Source of the DNA: a virus
Direction: 5' to 3' (one strand)
IMG/VR virus record: IMGVR_UViG_3300037261_000139
Span: 1-29,149 of that record
DNA length: 29,149 nucleotides
Positions 13,468 through 29,149 of this stretch are shown one piece after another; the stretch's first letter is position 1; every line of letters begins with the position of its first letter. The notes beneath the pieces are model-generated. The model worked only from the letters and a program-made list of their open reading frames with translations. It did no database searches and was not told where the DNA came from. The position numbers and the translations under genes were made by a program.

Positions 13468-13480
13468 AATCTTAAACAGG
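13468..13480 (+). promoter_or_regulatory. Leader motif AATCTTAAACAGG before baseplate-J gene
   Basis: Lies in the 58-base gap ahead of the 2417-aa gene and matches the other leader motifs. A small inverted repeat, TAAGT-AAG-ACTTA, lies at 13449-13461 just upstream. Together they suggest that the baseplate-J gene may have its own promoter or transcript start. The evidence is recurrence only. Confidence 0.3.
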
Positions 13481-19400: not shown

Positions 19401-20753
19401 GTTCAAGTTGGAGATCTTCTTAATTTTGGTCTAGACTTTGCCGTAGCAAACCAAGGAACTTTTGCAATCAGTAGTTTTGGCGGAAAACTTCCAGAGTTGA
19501 CTCAAATTCTAGTTCCTCCGGGTTCAGCATTTTCTTTGGTCGGCGCTGGCACATATTTTAATTTATATAGTGCCGGAAGTGTCCACAAAGACTATGTTTG
19601 GTTTAATACTGGCGCCAACACAGATCCCGCTCCTGTCGGATACACATCTGGAATAATGGTTCCCATTGTTATCGGAAATAACTCGACTCAAGTAGCCATG
19701 GCATTAGCGGCGGCAGTAAATGGTTTTGCCGGAGATTTCACGGCCACATCTACTGGAAACTTAGTAAATATTTCTACTACGGATTCTATCGAAACAACGC
19801 ACGCAACTAATTTCAACGTGCCCTCTCCTTTCGCAATTGTCATAACGCAAGCAGGAAGAAGAGCTTTCATAGAAGTAATTAATCCATCGATGGTTGTTCA
19901 ATCAGCGGTATTGGTGACAACTAGCTTTTTGACTGTCAACAGACCCCAATTACAGTTCTTTGAATATGAAGCAACTGTTCCAAATGATCTTTTCACCATT
20001 ACGTCTGGTGTTTTGGGCGCGACGAATCAGGGCAGCTGGCCTATTGATCAAGTCATCGACCAAAATACTATTATCGTGAATGCTATTCTGGCCCCAGCCA
20101 CTAATGTCAGCTTGAATGGCAATGAGAGCGCAGTTTTTGTAACTGAAGGTGTTCCTTACACAGGTTATAAACATGTGTTTTTAGTCGCTTCTCAACCTGG
20201 AGCCCCAACGAGAAATGATATCGTATTCGATACCAATGCTCAATACGAGAAAATAGACGAAGCTGCCGGTGTTCAGATGGTTTCTTTAGGTAAAGAAGAA
20301 TTCAGCACCAGTATCAGATTGGGATTAGACAGTTACAGATACAACACTGGTTTGATCGCAGAAGCCAATAGAATTATCTATGGAGATCCGAGAGATCCTA
20401 TCACATATCCTGGAGTCGGTGCTGCCGGCGCTGAGATTTTCGTTCAAGAGTCTTTGACCTTAAGAGTTCAGATCTCTCTTGTTGTTCGTCTCAATACTGG
20501 AGTGGCATTCTCTCAAATTATTACTCAGGTTAGAAGTAGCGTAAGTTCTTTGATCAACTCCAATCCTGTTGGCCAACCTATCGCGATTAGTTCTATCATC
20601 TCAGCTGTTAATGCAATTCCCGGTGTTCGCGCTATGGCAATCAGTAGTCCTCAATATGATTCTACTCACGACTTGATCTTTGTGGCTCCGAGTGAGAAAG
20701 CCAGAATTTTAGATCCTACTACAGACATCTCTGTATCGCAGATCGGGTCATAA
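13500..20753 (+). CDS. Giant baseplate J-like protein with inserted beta domains
   Basis: A 2417-aa protein; ordinary baseplate-J proteins are about 300-500 aa. The family core is split. The N-terminal part is at about 1-120 and 275-320, with DSETDDALRIRIKNALAS followed by TGLGTATAVESAVIGASP. The C-terminal part is at about 2224-2417, with GAEIFVQESLTLRVQISL and later SSIISAVNAIPGVRA. Between them lie about 1,900 residues of Thr/Ser/Ala/Gly-rich beta modules. These include repeats of a small module with N-x-G-x-Y/F, and a DUF3494 domain whose halves are in reversed order (about 1657-1872). The core forms the ring linking wedges around the hub; the insertions probably project outward and could bind cell surfaces. 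GGAG lies ten bases before the ATG, and two bases separate its stop from the next gene. Confidence 0.75.
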   Translation: MPNGPAPIAGIPNPQSYDQLNSDMLSTYAAKVGITDFNVGSAVTGFFETVALTTARASGDIFQILRDFSIDRATGDALKNLALENNVTPIVSAPASGPVNVVDTSFNKIATKIYAGANPPNVGSVTINVSDASLFTPTGSVYLGRGTPNVEGPLPYTLIVPVGGYFAITLSSPTTKFHNTGESVILAQGGNRAIPVNSIVVAPALGSNAAIQYSVIAPAVILDGETTVTGVQVTALTPGSAGNVPAGAIQSFASPPFTGATVANALPFVTGKDSETDDALRIRIKNALASTGLGTATAVESAVIGASPSDEQATVVSDNLILNASGAILYIDSGTGYEAKSTGVGLESIVDSALGGEQFFQLATGGRQAPVAKAFLQSTLSAPFDLIGGDTLAVTVGEVTYQHIFANSDFISPGGATAFEVTASINADTLLGFEATTAGNGEFVVIRANYEGNDSIQVVKPTTSGRDAAIQIGFSSNKVQTLRLYKNQIPLSKDGAEATVFTQSQALWSPAIANGDTLILAVDGTAPITYTVNDADFVATGLYSTVNATNSLASWVQVFLKKLTGVTTAIIGQQLTITSNLGANNRASIVIDPTSTLVTKGMFSTIIGLTSQGAASDFILSRNTAQFELIVPLVAGDKLSAGSNQTEARIQSASISGSSILFTTDAHVWLLIDNPGTIIPNGVAGNTVLVVSTPATNTIRYTSSNANAFVNVLPGDYVVIWSNELNVANRTEARVHANTANSLDIVVTAAEYAAAVPQSVVFVDGFVTLRSTLAPQRFRVSAGTLSLDQIVLELQSQTNEVTFSVQQEEFIVVRTNTKDTNGSLLVVTADTQGKLLLLPLYKFSTSQESLIAYLDSQTKDAQLPLFIHSTFAAGSFANPPDTFINSVTTTISFAGRDPNELLSMLHPYGAIKDEQPYGEYDQVTSIAGSVVGLQSEYLMHRVRIADRFYIANPLDFGSADTIVVILDNNPETESFTIPIYRRAIANNTQANNPSNFNAYDVDSGATALFDVAFLDFDFSNFKVLMQAKKVLKQTAAQTGILYRATRWGRSGEKIQIRYSYPSAPNSAIGSNITVGRFVDINLNLQSGAVAPTSIDPTTEWNVTITPNTPVAGVDQVTYTWSGVGTAPALTLLGGEYVNITNQTEFVTANTGIYRVSTQAGFTPTATSFSIQQLTGTAVVQSNVATNVIGAITFYQASPTTAAQMVAYVNANLLDITATLVNDGGVTGAGVLTFSTYEDSNFTAPYIQLADGINWIQSSDLIGSPEFTFKVPLAYSFDGPSSAWYTFNAMAYGPSSTGEELRIIPTTQDQVRRLISVLAVTGFTTEGDVLVVERGSRLELTTMVLGSLGAIQIIGGYGNGYQVPVLDSAIRLDNTYMIVSANRIASAGMHSDQWFRLQASIAQAKDDGFSSNTGVTIQSNNPVTGRSLITLSGRTLTQRYFGKPRNFIRTVGDTFRIEKQGALVCLSWTGVGPNPLFSTSLNFNDAGGGNINVYALPNSNDSQYIIEGGSANFTALSIGDLFTVSGLPQAGNNGTFLVTGVSADGTVVEVLNPLAENEFSNGTFTFTGNSTAGDAFTVGATILVAGTDFPIGGTQQITAANLATVIGALAGVTATAVGSVVTVTATTVSADIALSYTGSPVVTVSGGTPVPGVGAVTAQADALSAYTSLAALTYTPIASDLDGQVLTAGNYSESSGTFNLATSGPATLTLSGSATDVFVFKAASTLVTGAGGIPTITLTGGALAKNVYWIVGSSATLNSGNAGTFQGNVIAQASITDSLGGTVNGSLIALVGAVTLSAATNVIAQNSPLLLSAGSFAILGASAVTSTGFTVLTGNLGISPGTSITGFPPGTFSGSEHINDTNTVITSALAGDAFVAGDFTSLVGVQEGDTMIVGAPFNILNQGSYRVIREYNNSVWFENPDVIEEEVSLSAVPISITFDNTTSFSVTSVNGIEHLSWNGIGTEPSFTNVQVGDLLNFGLDFAVANQGTFAISSFGGKLPELTQILVPPGSAFSLVGAGTYFNLYSAGSVHKDYVWFNTGANTDPAPVGYTSGIMVPIVIGNNSTQVAMALAAAVNGFAGDFTATSTGNLVNISTTDSIETTHATNFNVPSPFAIVITQAGRRAFIEVINPSMVVQSAVLVTTSFLTVNRPQLQFFEYEATVPNDLFTITSGVLGATNQGSWPIDQVIDQNTIIVNAILAPATNVSLNGNESAVFVTEGVPYTGYKHVFLVASQPGAPTRNDIVFDTNAQYEKIDEAAGVQMVSLGKEEFSTSIRLGLDSYRYNTGLIAEANRIIYGDPRDPITYPGVGAAGAEIFVQESLTLRVQISLVVRLNTGVAFSQIITQVRSSVSSLINSNPVGQPIAISSIISAVNAIPGVRAMAISSPQYDSTHDLIFVAPSEKARILDPTTDISVSQIGS
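18468..19110 (+). other. Circularly permuted DUF3494-like domain (within baseplate-J protein)
   Basis: The C-terminal half of the DUF3494 fold comes first: AQADALSAYTSLAAL, then SGTFNLATSGPATLTL, GTFQGNVIAQASI and GSLIALVGAVTLSAATNV. The N-terminal half follows after only a few residues: SAGSFAILGASAVTSTG, then GNLGISPGTSITGFPPGTF and EHINDTN. The copy in the tail fibre (26158-26775) has the same halves in the usual order. The breakpoint falls around the helix that links the halves in normal members. Confidence 0.65.
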
Positions 20754-20755
20754 CA

Positions 20756-22678
20756 ATGCCAGTAACTACAGTAGCCCAACAATACGCACGGCTTAGGGCA
20801 TACCTAAATCCTTTCATTAAGGGACCAAAGGTCGATGCTGTGCTCACTGCGCTTGCCTCTGGCAATGCGGCCTATCTTGTCAATAATATTAGGGCCGTGA
20901 ATGATCAACTTTATATAGCTACGGCCTCTGCTCAATACTTGGATGCAAGACTCGCTCAATATGGCATTGTCAGACCCTCTAATGTTGGTTTGTCTGATGA
21001 CGTTTTTAGACAAATTGGTATTCAAGTAAAAAACAGAAAACAAGTCAGAGATCTCATGAATAATCTCCTGGATGCAATTTTTGGAGATGAATTCGTTCGC
21101 GCCAGTAGTTCTTCCAGTATGATCCAACCCTATAATTTGCAAGATGGGGATACCCTGACCATCAATTTCGATGGTACTGCACCAGTCACGGTCACATTTC
21201 ATACCGCACAATTCCAAAGTATTGCGGCGGCCACTGCTCAAGAAGTAGCGGATGCCATCGTAACAGATCTCAAGAATCTTGGATTTAATGGTACGGCCAT
21301 CGCGAAAGATGATGGAAATGGACCTTATGTTGAAATTATCAGTAACACTATTGGGCCTGCCTCTTCAGTAACAATTGAAGGCGGTAGCGCACAAAATGTT
21401 CTCGTATTCCCCTCGGTTGTTCCAGCTGGCGGTAACGGATCTACTCAGTGGACTCTATCATTACAACCCGGCGGCATTGTACGCTTCACTTGGACTGGAG
21501 GCGCGAGTCCTAATTTAGGACAAGTCCAAACTGGAAACTATGTCAATATTTACGGAGGTGGATTTACCGGATCTCCAAATGAAGGTAGTTATCCCATAAC
21601 CAATTCTATCGGTGGATCTGCCGGATCTTCTTATTTCGAGGTCCTCAATCCTTTGGGTCTTTCTGGAGTAGTTACGCAGGGATCTACGAATGCAATTTTA
21701 TTTTATAATCCTACAAAAGAGACTTTGAATAATAGAAATTCTTATGCTGCCATATATCAGGTTCAATCTCGTCTGCTCCAGATCTTTTTACCAGCTTCTA
21801 CTAAAGTCGTAAGACGAAGTAGGATTGGTTCGGCCCACATACATTTCCCTCCTCAAGGCACGTTCAAATTACTTCAACAACCCTTGACTGGAGAAGTATT
21901 TGAAATCACGACCACGGCCAGCGTAAAAGCCGGATCTGATTTTCAGATTGGGATCGATATTCCAACTACCGTATCCAATATGGTAGCTGCGATAAATCTC
22001 ATTCCTGGCATTTTGGCTATCGTGAATGATGGATCTAACTCCGATAATAATGATGAGAACATTGACACCGTATTGATTTTGAATCAGTCTTTGGCCAATA
22101 CTTTGGTTATTTTCTATTCAGGAATCAGAAATATTATCGCCAGCGGCCCAATAGGAGATAACACTTCTCTTGAACCTAATCAGCCGGGACCCTACACATA
22201 TGATTTGACTCAGCCATTTGTAATTAGCGCCATAGGGACAACTCTTAATCAAGAATTAGATGGGACAGATCCTAGAATCATACAGGTAAAAGACTCTTCT
22301 CAGTTCCCAGATGGCATCGGCTACATTATTTTGGGATATGGAACTAGTCATCAAGAAGGTCCGATTCCCTATATCGCAAGGCCCTCTAATACGACTCTTT
22401 TAATCAGTCCGGCCTATACAATTCAAAATGTCCATCCTCCGGGAACGGACGTTGCATATGTTGCCTCGAAGGCTCCGGTTGTTATCTCTCAGGATGGTTT
22501 AAGTTATCCTTTTTATCTTACTGACGTTGTTAGCGGCAGACTCTATGCGCAGAATTTAATTCAAAGTGTGGCAGCAACAGGCATCAATATCGTGTTCACT
22601 ATTCTTTACCCATCAGATATTGGTTTGGGTAAATGGGGTACTCCTGATTCGGAGAACCCTGTGATTTGGGGCGAATAA
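20756..22678 (+). CDS. Second baseplate/tail structural protein with J-like start
   Basis: A 640-aa protein starting three bases after the baseplate-J stop. The helical N-terminal region (about 1-115) contains LVNNIRAVNDQLYIATASAQ, then LDARLAQYGIVRPSNVGLSD, a pattern resembling the N-terminus of baseplate-J or gp6-type proteins. It then has modules also found in the preceding gene: DGDTLTINFDGTAPVTVTF (about 128-146), and a TWTGGASPNLGQVQTGNY module ending NEGSYPI and EVLNPLG (about 239-305). A further beta region with SSQFPDGIGYIILGYGTSHQ, again like a baseplate-J module, precedes the C-terminus. It probably pairs with the J protein in the baseplate periphery or serves as a fibre-attachment protein. 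Confidence 0.55.
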   Translation: MPVTTVAQQYARLRAYLNPFIKGPKVDAVLTALASGNAAYLVNNIRAVNDQLYIATASAQYLDARLAQYGIVRPSNVGLSDDVFRQIGIQVKNRKQVRDLMNNLLDAIFGDEFVRASSSSSMIQPYNLQDGDTLTINFDGTAPVTVTFHTAQFQSIAAATAQEVADAIVTDLKNLGFNGTAIAKDDGNGPYVEIISNTIGPASSVTIEGGSAQNVLVFPSVVPAGGNGSTQWTLSLQPGGIVRFTWTGGASPNLGQVQTGNYVNIYGGGFTGSPNEGSYPITNSIGGSAGSSYFEVLNPLGLSGVVTQGSTNAILFYNPTKETLNNRNSYAAIYQVQSRLLQIFLPASTKVVRRSRIGSAHIHFPPQGTFKLLQQPLTGEVFEITTTASVKAGSDFQIGIDIPTTVSNMVAAINLIPGILAIVNDGSNSDNNDENIDTVLILNQSLANTLVIFYSGIRNIIASGPIGDNTSLEPNQPGPYTYDLTQPFVISAIGTTLNQELDGTDPRIIQVKDSSQFPDGIGYIILGYGTSHQEGPIPYIARPSNTTLLISPAYTIQNVHPPGTDVAYVASKAPVVISQDGLSYPFYLTDVVSGRLYAQNLIQSVAATGINIVFTILYPSDIGLGKWGTPDSENPVIWGE

Positions 22679-23103
22679 TGGCACAGTCAATTATCCTTAC
22701 GGGTGCTTTGATAAAAATTTATTTGAACAATAAGCCCTACAACGTCATCAGAAATTTCTCTATGAGCGTAGATTACGGCGAGAGTGAAATTTACGGGATT
22801 GATTCATCCTATGCGCAAGAAATTGCGCCAGGCCATATTAGCGTCAGGGGATCTATCGGCGGGATTAGAGTAAAATATTCCGGAGGACTTCAGGCAGCCA
22901 ATTTAAGGCCTCTTTGGATCGATTTCGCGGCATCGCCCTACATTTCGATTCGAGTGACTGACAGATCAACCGGGGAAGATATCGTGTTCATACCCAGAGC
23001 CAAGGTCTTGAGAGAAAGTCATAACGCGCCTTCAAAGGGTGTTTATACCTTAAACTTTGACTTTGCTGGGATCGTTCCACTGTTCGCCCTCGACAGGTCT
23101 TGA
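22678..23103 (+). CDS. Tail-tube-like virion protein (141 aa)
   Basis: Start at 22678 forms TAATG with the previous stop; an upstream in-frame ATG at 22666 would overlap it by 13 bases. The beta-rich 141-aa protein includes VIRNFSMSVDYGESEIYGID, then IAPGHISVRGSIGGIRV, and SIRVTDRSTGEDIVF. This resembles the tail-tube/initiator barrel, including the DYG.SEIYGID loop and the conserved APG.xSVxGS strand. It may be a tube-like baseplate component rather than the main tube, because main tube genes usually lie upstream of the tape measure. Its last 54 bases overlap the end of the minus-strand exonuclease gene. Confidence 0.5.
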   Translation: MAQSIILTGALIKIYLNNKPYNVIRNFSMSVDYGESEIYGIDSSYAQEIAPGHISVRGSIGGIRVKYSGGLQAANLRPLWIDFAASPYISIRVTDRSTGEDIVFIPRAKVLRESHNAPSKGVYTLNFDFAGIVPLFALDRS

Positions 23104-23706
23104 AATCTTATATTCTAGCGGCCCTTTAGGCATTTCGATTTGAATCACCACGGGTGGATTCAAAGCTCCCCTGAGCATATGTGCCATTTTGATGAACGCA
23201 TAGAAAGTATTCACCGAGTCATCTTTTCCATCGTGGGGATTTCCAATAAATACCATACCGAGTGTCTCAAGACATTTGGCTAATCCAGCCTTAAGACTCT
23301 TGTCATTGGCAAGCATCAGAGTTTGAAAAATTGTTTTTGCGTCAAAGAAACGAATCCCAAAATCCCACCAAGTATCTGGTCCAGGCGGCAACATGGCCTT
23401 AACCTGTTCTTTTAAGACCCTCATATCACCTTGACCCCAAGCAATAGTCTGTTTGTGGCACTTGTGGTGACGACGAAATTTCCTTAGATCTTCGTAGGCT
23501 TCGACCAAGGAAACACCAGCATCGTTCATTTCCTGAGTGATCCCGGTCAGCTGAGTGATGAATTCTGTAATAGGCTCATCGATTTTTACCATCCGAGAAA
23601 AAGTCTCAATGACTTCCCCAGTACGGATCTTGCCGGCGCAGGCGCCAATTTGGATAATTTTGCCCGACGGCTGGTTCATCTCAAGGTCTACTGAAAGTAC
23701 GTTCAT
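23050..23706 (-). CDS. DEDDh 3'-5' exonuclease (DnaQ/RNase T-like)
   Basis: A 218-aa exonuclease that degrades DNA or RNA from the 3' end using two metal ions. The three family motifs are visible: ExoI SVDLEMNQP (D7, E9), ExoII AWGQGDMRVL (D94), and ExoIII PHDGKDDSVNTF (H158 and D163, with the His of the DEDDh subgroup). LTGITQEM between motifs I and II is also typical. The C-terminal 50 residues are an extra tail, encoded partly in the antisense overlap with the tube-like gene. It is the last gene of the minus-strand cassette; its ATG overlaps the stop of the small gene before it. Possible roles are end trimming, RNA turnover or degradation of host nucleic acid. Confidence 0.85.
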   Translation of the reverse strand: MNVLSVDLEMNQPSGKIIQIGACAGKIRTGEVIETFSRMVKIDEPITEFITQLTGITQEMNDAGVSLVEAYEDLRKFRRHHKCHKQTIAWGQGDMRVLKEQVKAMLPPGPDTWWDFGIRFFDAKTIFQTLMLANDKSLKAGLAKCLETLGMVFIGNPHDGKDDSVNTFYAFIKMAHMLRGALNPPVVIQIEMPKGPLEYKISRPVEGEQWNDPSKVKV

Positions 23707-23879
23707 TTTCTATGATCCTTTTTCTTGGGTTTCTTTACCCCATGTTTTTTGTAGCATTTTCGATTCTCCCCTTTATTGGGAGGGCAAAGGGAACAGCGCA
23801 ACTGCCCACGTTCCAACCTGTTTATTACAGTTGGATTGGTTTCATGTTTCAGTTGTTCTTTGGCCCTTTTCAAACTCAT
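23703..23879 (-). CDS. Small basic Cys-containing protein (58 aa)
   Basis: Reads MSLKRAKEQLKHETNPTVIN, then a CSLCPPNKGENRKC cluster, then KKHGVKKPKKKDHRK. Both ends overlap neighbouring genes as ATGA: its start with the lysin stop and its stop with the exonuclease start. These paired overlaps strongly support a real gene. The CxxC...C cluster with a Lys-rich tail resembles the other small phage protein at 1361-1513 and suggests nucleic-acid binding, which is inference. Confidence 0.65.
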   Translation of the reverse strand: MSLKRAKEQLKHETNPTVINRLERGQLRCSLCPPNKGENRKCYKKHGVKKPKKKDHRK

Positions 23880-24316
23880 TTTTTTCTCGCATACTTCGTT
23901 TCAAAACAGTTTAGGTTATCTCCAATGCTTTTGGGAAGCTTTTTCATCACGCATCGGATATATTTTATATTCTTGGGCATCCCCGGATGATACTCACTCT
24001 CCATGAAGGAGCCGGCATTATAGGCGGCAATTGCTTTGCAAGAGTCACCCAGGTATCGTTTATACTGATACTTTAAATATGTGGCCGCCCACTTTGCGTT
24101 CTCTTTTGGCTCCATAAGGTCTGCCGACGTACCATCAAAGCCAAGTTGTTGGGCTGTTCCCAATTTTACCATACAAATCCCATAACTGGGGGTTCCACCG
24201 TCATTTTCCCAGATCGTATTTTGAAGCCCGGTCTCGTGAGTACAGATAGCCAAAAGAATGGCGCCGGAAACTCCAACTTTTTTCGCAGCCAATAAAATAA
24301 TTGCAGAATAGTTCAT
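23876..24316 (-). CDS. Lytic transglycosylase (SLT/GH23) lysin
   Basis: A 146-aa peptidoglycan-cleaving enzyme of the soluble lytic transglycosylase fold. Catalytic Glu28 lies in ICTHETGLQN; SYGICMVKLGTAQQLGF (44-60) is the family's SYGLMQ-type motif with IC in place of LM; and AAYNAGS (97-103) is the conserved end motif. No signal peptide is present. The start at 24316 is chosen because GGAGG lies four bases upstream and the frame begins directly with the first SLT helix; a longer frame to 24367 has no such site and would run through the promoter. It may act as endolysin or tail-associated muralytic enzyme. A strong promoter and two operators lie just upstream. Confidence 0.8.
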   Translation of the reverse strand: MNYSAIILLAAKKVGVSGAILLAICTHETGLQNTIWENDGGTPSYGICMVKLGTAQQLGFDGTSADLMEPKENAKWAATYLKYQYKRYLGDSCKAIAAYNAGSFMESEYHPGMPKNIKYIRCVMKKLPKSIGDNLNCFETKYARKK

Positions 24317-24332
24317 AAAACCTCCATTCTTC

Positions 24333-24361
24333 ATTATACTGTGATTACGGTAGGAAGTCAA
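24333..24361 (-). promoter_or_regulatory. Consensus sigma70 promoter for the lysin-exonuclease cassette
   Basis: On the minus strand TTGACT (24361-24356) is followed after exactly 17 bases by TATAAT (24338-24333). One mismatch from the full consensus with ideal spacing makes this the strongest promoter seen in the window. It would start transcription about 10 bases before the ribosome site of the lytic transglycosylase gene. Two palindromes overlap or flank it. Confidence 0.8.
24337..24352. promoter_or_regulatory. Operator copy 1, overlapping the -10 region
   Basis: TACTGTGATTACGGTA, an imperfect dyad matching the perfect palindrome at 24367-24382 at all but two positions. It covers the start of the -10 box and most of the spacer, so a bound protein would block RNA polymerase. 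Confidence 0.7.
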
Positions 24362-24366
24362 AATCA

Positions 24367-24382
24367 TACTGTAATTACAGTA
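24367..24382. promoter_or_regulatory. Operator copy 2, perfect 16-bp palindrome
   Basis: TACTGTAATTACAGTA is a perfect palindrome whose centre is exactly 30 bases (about three helical turns) from that of copy 1. It lies just upstream of the -35 box and immediately after the stop of the zinc-ribbon gene. The arrangement suggests cooperative binding by a dimeric repressor such as a Cro/CI- or LexA-type protein. The regulator is not in the window. Confidence 0.75.
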
Positions 24383-24387
24383 TTGAC

Positions 24388-24774
24388 CTAACCTATTGTT
24401 TTCTTTACTATTCCCGTGACTTCCGGGGTGTAAAGCTGTGTTTTGGTCCTATTTTGACACTCAGAGTTAGAACATTTTCTGAAATAATACGTCACGTCGA
24501 TTTTATTGAAGGTGAAAATTTCGAGGTATCCGTCGCACCCAGGTTCTTTACAGGCCCACTCTTTTTTGAGCTTTTCGACGATGCGAATGCCTTCTGGAGC
24601 GTCAACCCCTTGATAATTCTGTTCAATTAGGTCTGCGGCGCTAGAAAACTTGTCTAGGTTGGCTCTAGCGTTCATCTTTCGCAGTTTCGCATTCTCCCTC
24701 TGTAACTGCTTGTTTTTATATAGTAATTCTTGTTCTCTAGAGTATTCCCGGTCGCCACGTTTGGTCTTTCCCAC
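24388..24774 (-). CDS. Zinc-ribbon protein (128 aa, GTG start)
   Basis: The GTG at 24774 has AAGGAG six bases upstream. Residues 1-55 are charged and helical (YSREQELLYKNKQLQRENAK) with coiled-coil character. The C-terminal half holds a probable zinc ribbon, CKEPGC and CSNSEC about 22 residues apart, with YYFRKC between, as in small phage zinc-finger proteins. It probably binds nucleic acid or a polymerase and might regulate transcription, but no specific family is recognised. It is the first minus-strand gene of the cassette and is separated from the lysin by its own promoter/operator region. Confidence 0.6.
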   Translation of the reverse strand: MGKTKRGDREYSREQELLYKNKQLQRENAKLRKMNARANLDKFSSAADLIEQNYQGVDAPEGIRIVEKLKKEWACKEPGCDGYLEIFTFNKIDVTYYFRKCSNSECQNRTKTQLYTPEVTGIVKKTIG

Positions 24775-24860
24775 TCAGGTCTCCTTAAAAGTATCTCTTT
24801 GAAGATTCATCTGCTTCCCAATTGCAGTTTATCTGATATTAGAGAGGAAAGCAACACGCC

Positions 24861-24873
24861 AATCTTATAGGGG
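24861..24873 (+). promoter_or_regulatory. Leader motif AATCTTATAGGGG before the tail-fibre gene
   Basis: Lies in the 126-base divergent region between the zinc-ribbon and fibre genes and matches the leader motif at 2196, 10817, 13468 and 492. AAGGG ahead of the ATG at 24901 is the likely ribosome site. I see nothing else definite in 24775-24900. Confidence 0.35.
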
Positions 24874-24900
24874 TAACTGTCTAATGCTAAGGGTAAATAA

Positions 24901-27900
24901 ATGGCTGTAAAACGAAGAGTTAATTGGGTCTCACAACAGCGCGTCGATGTGCCTGACCTGAGATCTATTGAGTCTGCTGCTTCTAATGACTTTGACGAAT
25001 TATTACAGACACTCTATCTAGGTGCCGGCGACGGCTATATCTACAGGGGTTTTGATATCGTAATGTCAGGCCTCATCGGCGGAGCCGCGAGCGGCGCCCA
25101 GATGAACGTGGATCAAGCTGCCATTCTTCACCCCAAGTCAAAACAGTCCGGAACCTTCTTAGTCGTTCCGCCCGGAACTCCGCCCCAAGTCCTAAATTCC
25201 GCTACCAATTCGATTGTACAGGGCGCATTCTCTCCAAGCTCACTCAATTACGTTGGGATCGAATACATTCGATTTATTGACGATAGTACCGCATCTCAGG
25301 TTTACATCTGGGACCCGACCATTAATGACGAAACCACAAAAGTCATTCCCCGCGCCAATATTCTGATTTACAACATCTTTATCAGCACGGGCACTTGGGC
25401 TCCTAACGTCCTTCCAGTCTGCATCATAACGACCGATGCCGGCAATAACGTCATCGATATCGAAGATCAACGCCCATTAATGAATCGTCTGGGAACCGCC
25501 GGGAGAACAACCCCGAATCCCTTCTATTCTTACCCCTGGACCGCCCAATCTGAAGGACGAACTGAAAGTCCATTCATTTCGTCCAGTAATGCGATAAATC
25601 CATTCCACGGCGGCGACAAGATGCTCGGCACCGAAAAGGACTGGAAAGACGCCATCATGTCCGTTATCAAGGAGATGAAGGGTTCAGCTTTTTGGTACAC
25701 GAACGGGTCTTCTTCTGTAGCAAGTTTAAATTTAACCGATTTGTTCTTCGACTCTTCGTCCGGCAGTTTATTGACAATGCGCGGCAAATTTATCCACAGC
25801 GCGGTCACACCCGGAATGTTGACTTGGACTGGCCAACTCAATCTCGACTCTATCATCGGAAATCTCCGTTATGTTGTTCCGCCCGGTTCAGTTACTTTGG
25901 CCGACAAACAAGTTGCATATATCGTTTTAGGCCGAGACAATAATTTTCAACCTACTAACACATTTACCTTTACGACTGGCTCGACAACGGTTACGGCCAC
26001 TTCTCTCATTGCTGGGATTTTTCCTGGCGACTACATCGTTTTCTTTTCTGATAGTATCGCGGATTACGCCGAAGTTTCAAGTGTTTCTGGAAATACAATC
26101 ATTCTTACAACTCCATACGGAACAGCCGGCGCAAGTCCTCCTCCCGGAAGTCCAAATCTTGGAACAGCCTCAAACTACGGTATTTTGGCCGCATCTGCGA
26201 TCACCAATAGCGTTGGAACAAGTACTGTCAATGGTAGCTTAGGAGAATATCCTAACGGTGCCGTTACAGGCGCTTTCACGATCACGGGATCAACAGACCT
26301 GGCAAATGCCGCAGCACATACTGCTCAAAACGGCGCTCTTGTCGCCTACACAGATTTATCGACCAGAACTTCGACAGCCATTTCTCCTGTTCTTGATGGT
26401 CAAACATTAACTGCCGGCGTTTATAGAGAATCATCTGGCACTTTCAATTTAGCTACTTCTGGACCTGCTACACTTACATTAAATGGTTCCGCTACTGACA
26501 TTTTCGTATTTATTTGTTCTTCTACCTTAACGACTGGTGCCGGCGGCATTCCTACGATCAATCTCACGGGCGGAGCATTAGCTTCAAACGTCTATTGGGC
26601 AGTAGGAAGTTCTGCAACAATTAACTCAGGTTTTGCCGGAACATTCCAAGGTACGATCATTGCTCAAGCGAGTATCACAAATACTTTGGGTGGAATCGTC
26701 AATGGCAGACTTATCGCTCTTACCGCAGCAGTTACTTTAAGTCAAATTACAACTATCAATGTTCCAAATCTTGTTCCAATTGGTGGAAGCGAAACAGGTA
26801 TTGCCTTAAGTGCAACTGGTGCTTATACCATACAAGTTGCTGATCCCGCCAATGTTCCTACGAATGGAAATGTTTATTGGATCGCGAAACGAGACGATAA
26901 TGGATCTATCACTGCATCTATTGCTTCTGCACCTACCGGCGCCGTTAGAGTTTCTGGAGTAACCACATTTCTTACGACTCTTCCTCATGGAATTAATGCC
27001 GGCCAAGGTGTGCAGGTAGCCGGAGTTACCGACACTACATTCAATGGTTTCTATGAAGTTTTAAGTACTCCTACAGCTTCTAGTTTTACAGTTGAAGATC
27101 CTGGGAATGATGCAACTTCTGGCGGCGGCACAGTAAATGGAACTGCGACAATTTATCTTCGTGGTATTGGCGAAATTTCCCAAGGGGAAGTTATCTCTGA
27201 TGACAGCAGCCAAATGGAAGCTGTTCTTCAATACATCGGCGCCACATATGCCGGTGACACTCAGCCACAATATCGCTCCACAAATTATGTCACTCAAGGT
27301 ATCGATCTCACAGATGCTATTGGTCAACTGGATGCTTTTGCCGGATCTGCCAACAACATCTCAAATCAAGACAGAAGCTTAAAATTTGTTTTAGGTAATC
27401 CGATTAGTTGGAATGACCCGAACCTTGTTTTGGCTGCGAACGCATACATTCAAGTTCCCGGACTCGCCGATGCAAGAAATACAATTCTTGCGCAGACCAT
27501 TAATTTGGCTGCCAATGATGACGTTGCTTGGGTAGAAATCAACAGAACTGCTGGCGCACCTGCCAACTTGACTGTTCAAACAGGTCTCATAAGTTCTTTA
27601 GTTGCCGATAATAATACTGTCATTATCGCAAGAAAATTCGGTTCAGCTGGAAGTCCTGGCGGATCAATCCTTGGAGATTTAGTTGTTACTGGTTCTTCAA
27701 GAGAATTTTTAGTTGGCACTACTCTTTATGTATCCAACGGATCTGACGATACTTTTAAAATTTACGATGTGTCAACATACACTCCAACCCTACTTTCAAG
27801 CACTTCATTTGCTGTTGAAGGACCTCTTTTAGTATCTGGAAGTACCGCATTTGTTGCAGTTAGCGGATCATACATTGAAGCTATCGACATATCTGTTCCT

Positions 27901-29149
27901 ACCGTACCTGTAATATTAGGAAACATAAATTTAGGATTCGGAAACAACCCAGCAAACATGTGGTTGGTTGGAACTAGATTGTTCATCTTCGCAACAAGCG
28001 GAGAAATGTTCATTGTTAATGTCGCCACTCCTTCTTCTATGACACTTGCCGGAGCCAACGGATTGTTTGGCAGTAGTTTCTCGGGACAAATTGTTGTTGT
28101 TGCAAATACGGCATATTTGGCGAGTGGTACAAACGGCATAAATATTTTGGATGTAACTACCAATATTCCAGTCAATCATACGGCATACACGACTGGCTTA
28201 ACTGCACCACAAGGTTTAAGTACTGACGGAACATATCTCTATGTTTTGGATGGCAGTAATTTAGTTGTCTTGAATATTTCAAGTCCATATTTACCAGTTC
28301 AAATTGGGACTCTTGCTTTAGGATTTTCTGCAACTAGAATTTCCATCACTGGAACCGTAGCCTACATCGCAAATTTCTCTGGCAATACAGCTGCCGCAGT
28401 TGATATTTCAACTCCTTCTGCGCCTGTTCTATTATGGAACACGGTTTTAGGTTCTACGGTAGATGAAGTAGTAGGAAATGGAACAGTTGCATATGCGATA
28501 GCAAACACAGAAATTTACACTTTACAAGTACCGACTGTTGCCGGCGCAAGTGAAGTAATCGTTGGTTCTCACTCTTTCAGATTAGTAGACGGAGAGTCAA
28601 AAGAAAATGATGCCGGGATGTCCATCCAAAATAGGACACTCTTAGGTATTGCGAGTGAAGCTCAATCAGATCCAGGATGGAATAGCATCTTAGGCGCTCC
28701 TCTTAGAACAATTCCTTTAGATAATACTCCTGTTCTTTCTGCAATTGCTTCTATGGACAAAGAAATAGATAAATTCTTTGGCCAAATGGAATTGGAACCC
28801 GCCAATCCTATTTCTACTCGAATTATTGTAACTGGGTCCGCCGTTACGATGTTGAATGGTTCTACTAGAACCCAAAAAATCTCAAGTCTTTTACTGTCAT
28901 TTGCCGGCGCACAAATTGATTTTGCAACTGGTAATATCTATGCTTCTGATGGAATTACGCCCCTTGGTGTAAATTTCACTCCCGTAGTAATTGCAGCAAA
29001 CCAATATCAATGGTACTCAGTAAGCATTATTCCGAATGCTTCCACTTCTGATGGACAATTGTCTGGTCAGCTTTTAGTTCTGCCTGGTAATGGCACTGGC
29101 ACAAGTCCAGCCCTTGCAAATAAAGCTCCGTTCCCTTCAAATGGAATTC
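24901..29149 (+). CDS. Giant tail fibre/adhesin, open at the window end (at least 1416 aa)
   Basis: I followed the frame line by line from the ATG at 24901 and found no stop before the window end. The N-terminal 200 residues (MAVKRRVNWVSQQRVDVPDL, then GYIYRGFDI and PPGTPPQVLNSATNS) resemble a virion-attachment domain of large phage tail proteins. A beta region follows at about 260-410. Residues about 420-625 are a complete, normally ordered DUF3494 domain. A short module with FNGFYEV follows (about 683-735), then at about 920-1210 LVIVD-type propeller repeats (VGTTLYVSNGSDDTF, TAYLASGTNGINILDVTT, YLYVLDGSNLVVLNISSP). The last part (from about 1225) contains VGSHSFRLVDGES and further beta structure. 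The fibre probably recognises the host surface. It starts the fibre unit right after the divergent cassette. Confidence 0.75.
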   Translation, partial: MAVKRRVNWVSQQRVDVPDLRSIESAASNDFDELLQTLYLGAGDGYIYRGFDIVMSGLIGGAASGAQMNVDQAAILHPKSKQSGTFLVVPPGTPPQVLNSATNSIVQGAFSPSSLNYVGIEYIRFIDDSTASQVYIWDPTINDETTKVIPRANILIYNIFISTGTWAPNVLPVCIITTDAGNNVIDIEDQRPLMNRLGTAGRTTPNPFYSYPWTAQSEGRTESPFISSSNAINPFHGGDKMLGTEKDWKDAIMSVIKEMKGSAFWYTNGSSSVASLNLTDLFFDSSSGSLLTMRGKFIHSAVTPGMLTWTGQLNLDSIIGNLRYVVPPGSVTLADKQVAYIVLGRDNNFQPTNTFTFTTGSTTVTATSLIAGIFPGDYIVFFSDSIADYAEVSSVSGNTIILTTPYGTAGASPPPGSPNLGTASNYGILAASAITNSVGTSTVNGSLGEYPNGAVTGAFTITGSTDLANAAAHTAQNGALVAYTDLSTRTSTAISPVLDGQTLTAGVYRESSGTFNLATSGPATLTLNGSATDIFVFICSSTLTTGAGGIPTINLTGGALASNVYWAVGSSATINSGFAGTFQGTIIAQASITNTLGGIVNGRLIALTAAVTLSQITTINVPNLVPIGGSETGIALSATGAYTIQVADPANVPTNGNVYWIAKRDDNGSITASIASAPTGAVRVSGVTTFLTTLPHGINAGQGVQVAGVTDTTFNGFYEVLSTPTASSFTVEDPGNDATSGGGTVNGTATIYLRGIGEISQGEVISDDSSQMEAVLQYIGATYAGDTQPQYRSTNYVTQGIDLTDAIGQLDAFAGSANNISNQDRSLKFVLGNPISWNDPNLVLAANAYIQVPGLADARNTILAQTINLAANDDVAWVEINRTAGAPANLTVQTGLISSLVADNNTVIIARKFGSAGSPGGSILGDLVVTGSSREFLVGTTLYVSNGSDDTFKIYDVSTYTPTLLSSTSFAVEGPLLVSGSTAFVAVSGSYIEAIDISVPTVPVILGNINLGFGNNPANMWLVGTRLFIFATSGEMFIVNVATPSSMTLAGANGLFGSSFSGQIVVVANTAYLASGTNGINILDVTTNIPVNHTAYTTGLTAPQGLSTDGTYLYVLDGSNLVVLNISSPYLPVQIGTLALGFSATRISITGTVAYIANFSGNTAAAVDISTPSAPVLLWNTVLGSTVDEVVGNGTVAYAIANTEIYTLQVPTVAGASEVIVGSHSFRLVDGESKENDAGMSIQNRTLLGIASEAQSDPGWNSILGAPLRTIPLDNTPVLSAIASMDKEIDKFFGQMELEPANPISTRIIVTGSAVTMLNGSTRTQKISSLLLSFAGAQIDFATGNIYASDGITPLGVNFTPVVIAANQYQWYSVSIIPNASTSDGQLSGQLLVLPGNGTGTSPALANKAPFPSNGI
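26158..26775 (+). other. DUF3494 (ice-binding-like adhesin) domain in normal order
   Basis: The N-terminal half reads SNYGILAASAITNS, then GSLGEYPNGAV. The linking helix region is AAAHTAQNGALVAYTDL. The C-terminal half reads SGTFNLATSGPATLTLNGSA, then GTFQGTIIAQASI and GRLIALTAAVTL. The C-terminal half is very similar to the permuted copy at 18468-18920, so the two share a recent origin. DUF3494 occurs in ice-binding proteins and in bacterial adhesins; ice binding itself is not implied here. Confidence 0.75.
27661..28530 (+). other. LVIVD-type beta-propeller repeats in the tail fibre
   Basis: At least five repeats of the pattern 'hydrophobic strand, TLYV/AYLA, short loop, I-x-DV, S-x-P, PV-x-L-G'. 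Examples are TLYVSNGSDDTFKIYDVST, EAIDISVPTVPVILGNI, NILDVTTNIPVNH, LVVLNISSPYLPVQIGTLAL and AVDISTPSAPVLLWNTV. This pattern is characteristic of LVIVD repeats, which form a bacterial cell-surface beta-propeller. Confidence 0.65.

Follow-up and report, generated by a model that had tools for sequence, protein, structure and literature searches.

A host-type lysin promoter with paired operator-like palindromes in a probably virulent large phage

Ahead of the lysin gene in a 29,149-nucleotide stretch of phage DNA (the window), a promoter-like sequence, which recurs before the lysins of related phages within a shared gene order, is accompanied by two palindromic dyads, O1 and O2, paired beyond what chance would give. 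Our preferred reading, with a probability of about 0.6, is that this is the sigma70 promoter of the lysin operon furnished with two operators, which a dimeric protein would bind cooperatively, putatively repressing the operon; we infer the protein binding, the repression and the timing.

Results

A dedicated promoter for the lysin operon

With its hexamers 17 bp apart, within the 16-18 bp spacing of a sigma70 promoter, TTGACT-17-TATAAT agrees with the sigma70 consensus at 11 of 12 positions, the top score among the 19 sites (16.9 expected) that passed a threshold of 9/12 in a scan of positions 20000-29149 (Table 1). The first-pass annotation had described a near-perfect host-type promoter here, and its sequence, strand and coordinates were correct. 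The minus strand reads ATACTGTAATTACAGTAT-GATT-TTGACT-TCCTACCGTAATCACAG-TATAAT-GAAGAATGGAGGTTTT-ATG, with 16 nt from the end of the -10 hexamer to the lysin ATG and a GGAGG Shine-Dalgarno sequence present. We placed the lysin start at the ATG at 24316-24314, rather than at the mechanical start of the open reading frame at 24367, because of this Shine-Dalgarno sequence and the N-termini of relatives.

Table 1. Features in and around the lysin promoter region
Feature	Position	Strand	Remarks
-35 hexamer	24361-24356	-	TTGACT; 17-bp spacer to -10
-10 hexamer	24338-24333	-	TATAAT; position and sequence class kept in relatives
O1, operator-like dyad	24337-24352	-	TACTGTGATTACGGTA (TACCGTAATCACAGTA on the minus strand); overlaps spacer and -10
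O2, operator-like dyad	24367-24382		perfect palindrome TACTGTAATTACAGTA; upstream of -35; no strand
SLT-type lytic transglycosylase (lysin), 146 aa	23876..24316	-	Pfam SLT, 1e-13; 11 homologues aligned; GGAGG Shine-Dalgarno just upstream
Basic peptide with three Cys, 58 aa	23703..23879	-	overlaps both neighbours; homologue in G002 79% identical
RNase_T/DnaQ-type exonuclease, 218 aa	23050..23706	-	Pfam 2.1e-13; PHROG 192
Coiled-coil plus zinc-ribbon protein, 128 aa	24388..24774	-	next to the promoter, on its upstream side; a conserved island gene
AATCTTA, candidate phage-type (late) promoter element	24861..24867	+	ahead of the fibre gene (24901)

The region upstream of the lysin start holds promoter matches of at least 9/12 in 12 of 16 relatives, and the best match has a 17-bp spacer in 15 of them. 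Six (L009, L011, L017, L024, L027 and L029) carry the exact -35 hexamer TTGACT before the lysin, and the -10 of the relatives mostly ends 17-22 nt ahead of the lysin start. When the promoters of the window and of contig L003 are aligned, the -35, -10 and Shine-Dalgarno blocks are retained while the remainder has drifted. This recurrence is better evidence than agreement with the consensus by itself that the lysin has a real promoter of its own, and the sequences support its assignment as the host-type (sigma70) promoter of an operon for the lysin, the small peptide and the exonuclease.

The lysin heads this operon, in which the three genes overlap; no T-tailed terminator was found after it. 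The neighbours on the plus strand are tail genes, encoding a 640-aa protein, a 140-aa tube-like protein and a long fibre, and in Myxococcus phage Mx1 the homologue of the 640-aa protein adjoins a baseplate J gene. The promoter-operator structure and the gene arrangement support the earlier proposal that the promoter drives the lysin, the small Cys peptide and the exonuclease opposite the tail genes, as predicted from sequence. The left end of the stretch encodes a peptide deformylase (2-328) and an HAD_SAK_2 protein (755-1177), whose HAD domain is of a kind known from RNA repair proteins.

The coiled-coil plus zinc-ribbon protein gave no usable Pfam, PHROG or PDB match and no significant hit in a fold search (pTM of the model, 0.42). 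It was rejected as a known regulator for want of a usable family or fold match; as an Ogr/Delta-like zinc finger it shows just a resemblance in Cys spacing. This family (alignment A5) adjoins the lysin across these phages, and no known relative of it was found.

Two paired dyads at the promoter

O1 covers the first TA of the -10 hexamer and 14 bp of the spacer, and O2 begins 5 bp upstream of the -35 hexamer. The palindrome of O2 is perfect over 18 bp when one flanking pair is included (24366-24383); O1 has two mismatches from the perfect form and repeats 14 of the 16 bases of O2. A gap of 14 bp puts their centres 30 bp apart, or 2.86 turns at 10.5 bp per turn, so that of the earlier claim of two phased operators with centres exactly 30 bp apart, the dyads and the distance stand, and the helical face is roughly, not exactly, the same.

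O1 and O2 are the only sites with at most 3 mismatches in the 29-kb window, where 0.10 are expected, and none of 100 shuffled sequences contained two such sites. They also form the sole pair in the window of the structure defined by two 16-mers, each with six or more of its 8 symmetric pairs, that are alike at 13 or more of 16 bases and start 16-60 bp apart; any such pair arose in 3 of 300 shuffles and an equally good one in none. With 0.10 sites expected and two found 30 bp apart, together with the absence of an equal in 300 shuffles, the pair is thus not a product of chance. A literature search for CTGTAATTACAG found nothing.

O2 starts 6 nt past the stop codon of the zinc-ribbon gene, its RNA folds at -10.8 kcal/mol (z -2.6), and in L019 and L025/L003 its position is taken by another hairpin, GGCTTTTT..AAAAGCC. 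These observations are compatible with O2 being a 3'-end hairpin for processing or weak termination of the zinc-ribbon mRNA, its likeness to O1 having come about by chance or by a short duplication. We consider this unlikely, as no U-run follows the stem, a hairpin would have no need of the second copy in O1, and the shuffles exclude chance as the source of the likeness.

The spacing of the pair recalls NrdR boxes, which are paired 16-bp palindromes with a 14-17 bp spacer and the core C.[AT].A[AT].[AT].G (PMC12051234). O1 and O2 share with them the two 16-bp palindromes, the 14-bp spacer and about three helical turns between centres, but the core is not matched (from C to G, both dyads span 12 rather than 10) and they stand at a lysin operon instead of ribonucleotide reductase. 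NrdR was therefore rejected.

The dyads are specific to one lineage

The dyads of the window are absent at the lysin promoters of all relatives, including the closest one, G002, and over 32 related records sites with at most 3 mismatches are no commoner than in a reversed control, so that a family-wide motif was rejected. Since the promoter recurs before the lysins of relatives and the dyads do not, O1 and O2 are best regarded as a lineage-specific overlay, and the promoter evidently works without them elsewhere. G002 has an imperfect dyad, TACCTTAATTGGGGTA, at the O1 position. L022 has two dyads sharing CTACC/GGTA ends near the O2 and O1 positions, not significant in a shuffle test, and some relatives have other inverted repeats where O2 stands. 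With O1 and O2 missing from relatives, and other dyads or repeats present in some, the regulatory overlay appears to change faster than the promoter.

Isolated copies occur inside genes. G002 has one perfect TACTGTAATTACAGTA (L041 10690-10705) within its baseplate spike gene, where it encodes TVITV; this copy, unlikely by chance, has no promoter context and is not in the homologue in the window. L003 carries TACTGTCATTACGGTA at 1946-1961, one base from O1 and a 2-mismatch copy, inside the exonuclease gene and with no promoter.

Other dyad pairs were noted in these genomes. Just upstream of a 69-aa gene at 24926, G002 has two identical perfect palindromes, TATGTTTATAAACATA, 33 bp apart (24941/24974; 24941-24989, or L043 4941-4989), which from their sequence are a further candidate operator pair. 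Intergenic pairs of similar dyads stand in G002 also at 32498/32539 and 91738/91761, and G005 also has pairs; simulated sequence has almost none. We rejected as operators a pair in G022 (21031/21072), which is part of longer direct repeats, and one in G005 (158926/158967), which probably is. The genome of G022 (L074-L081) also has heptamers from a CCTGTCTGGGGC/GCAAACCTG-like repeat, each present more than 100 times.

The same geometry at a cellular regulator gene

The pair pattern had no match in IMG/VR. In about 257 Gb of bacterial genomes the dyad pair with an identical 14-bp gap occurred once, at 4613-4658 of L050, from one of 299 Lachnospiraceae genomes. It lies immediately before the gene of a YtrA-type GntR repressor, after which comes an ABC transporter. 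The O1/O2 geometry therefore sits at a regulator's promoter elsewhere. Each dyad there is the same to one base, with the same gap, the same 30 bp between centres and a place in the promoter region; unlike in the phage, the operon is that of a cellular repressor and ABC transporter, and the whole 46 bp form one long palindrome.

The dyads might be targets of an activator, or of a host regulator such as one of the GntR/YtrA or XRE type, through which lysin expression would follow the state of the host rather than a phage repressor. A centre near -48.5 for O2 would suit activation, the sole match to the pair in a cellular genome lies at a GntR operon, and no GntR protein scored over the cut-off in 15 phage records; a GntR binder would then probably have to be cellular, and a GntR regulator encoded by those 15 records was set aside. 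We regard this reading as possible but unlikely. A promoter matching 11/12 should already need no activator, and O1 would block the polymerase; the Lachnospiraceae pair was found in a single one of the 299 genomes and is distant from any likely host; and sites of the YtrA subfamily are usually single and longer (PMC4494728). The one small HTH_3 protein carried by G002 was likewise rejected as the regulator, since no O1/O2-like dyad lies upstream of its gene.

The lysin island is a standing part of a probably virulent family

The 640-aa protein and a 646-aa protein match a single phage record, Myxococcus phage Mx1 (169.6 kb). Relatives of the window phage in IMG/VR are 155-176 kb long, and Mx1, though distant kin, is the nearest cultured relative. 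Mx1-like phages are described as wholly virulent and T-even-like, forming clear plaques (PMC6070905).

The lysin island on the reverse strand keeps its place between the tube-like and fibre genes in 16 distinct related contigs: the lysin lies opposite the tube-like gene, together with the zinc-ribbon gene, usually the fibre gene and mostly the exonuclease. The gap between the zinc-ribbon and lysin genes ranges from less than 100 bp to about 2 kb (L012, L018, L021, L024, L027 and L029), in L012 contains another gene on the opposite strand, and may be a place where genes are readily gained.

No tyrosine integrase was found in G002, G006, G011, G022 or Mx1, and G005 has one recombinase-like gene; an S24 (LexA/CI) protein was found neither in these six records nor in the 29-kb window, which is an incomplete genome. 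None of the records examined thus combines the S24 repressor and integrase of a LexA/CI-controlled prophage. A prophage moron would be a unit absent from close relatives with a promoter and terminator of its own; of these marks the island has the promoter. Synteny, an integrase-like gene in G005 only and the lack of S24 proteins together indicate that the island is a standing part of the family, not a cargo unit, and the window phage is probably a large virulent phage. The first-pass annotation had seen what looked like an independently regulated cargo ('moron') unit, whose separate acquisition the synteny in 16 contigs does not support, and had suggested expression from a repressed prophage, against which speak the virulent relatives, the closest relative without an integrase and the absence of S24 proteins.

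The 7-bp arms TACTGTA/TACAGTA match those of the E. coli LexA box, which would suit LexA/SOS or CI-type control, with a moron switched on in a repressed prophage or in response to DNA damage. Such control is hardly credible. The dyad reads CTGT-N4-ACAG, 4 bp short of the CTGT-N8-ACAG of LexA, as the earlier view that this is not a known LexA box had it, and this wrong spacing and the missing S24 protein led us to reject LexA; the virulent relatives, the five records without an integrase and the syntenic island also weigh against a prophage.

Structural genes carry a different element

The heptamer AATCTTA occurs on the plus strand also at 492-498, 2196-2202 and 13468-13474, and in the window stands 14-34 nt ahead of the structural genes at 513, 2224, 13500 and 24901. 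It is enriched in the intergenic DNA of G002, and near gene starts it outnumbers its reversal by 11 to 4 in G002, 9 to 0 in G006 and 15 to 5 in G022, with 5 of each in G005. AATCTTA or AATCTTT precedes the fibre gene in most relatives. From sequence, it is a candidate for a late promoter element of phage type. AATCTTA is lacking at the lysin operon, which carries the host-type promoter instead. Since the structural genes carry AATCTTA, control of the operon appears to be separate from that of the late genes; this difference supports the part of the initial description that proposed independent regulation, while the times of expression are inferred. In G005, TTGACTT promoters stand before many genes.

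The division resembles that in T4-like phages, with host-type promoters on one gene set and a different short element before structural genes, although AATCTTA differs from the T4 late element, TATAAATA. No late sigma factor was confirmed, and weak Sigma70_r2 matches occurred just in Mx1 and G011.

Discussion

In the mechanism that we favour, a dimeric DNA-binding protein would bind O1 and O2 cooperatively. Bound at O1, it would cover the spacer together with the first bases of the -10 hexamer and exclude RNA polymerase, and binding at O2 would strengthen it. The spacer and -10 are the classical place for steric repression by bacterial repressors. The lysin operon would thereby be held off or capped, under control separate from the phage-type promoters that serve the structural genes, for as long as the regulator is not lost, displaced or outcompeted.

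Phage promoters of the lambda, 434 and P22 type have tandem dyads over a sigma70 promoter and are operator-controlled. The region described here is like them in its near-identical dyads over and upstream of a strong host-type promoter and in their cooperative spacing. It differs in that it serves a lysin operon and not an immunity region, with no adjacent CI or Cro gene, that its dyad sequence is not conserved among relatives, and that the family looks virulent. A broader version, in which each lineage overlays the conserved lysin promoter, and others, with its own palindromic operator pair, so that operator specificity is exchanged at a promoter that stays fixed, appears to us quite unlikely; if true, it would resemble what immunity systems do, applied to when virulent phages lyse the cell.

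The regulatory element is of an ordinary kind, and its place, before a lysin operon in a probably virulent phage, is mildly surprising; this assessment is well supported, and the binding is predicted. Away from the T4 model, little is known of how large virulent phages time lysis, and the region 24333-24382 offers a short DNA fragment for finding the regulator. Should the phage itself encode that regulator, a lysis gene would be under a repressor in a phage that has no lysogenic cycle.
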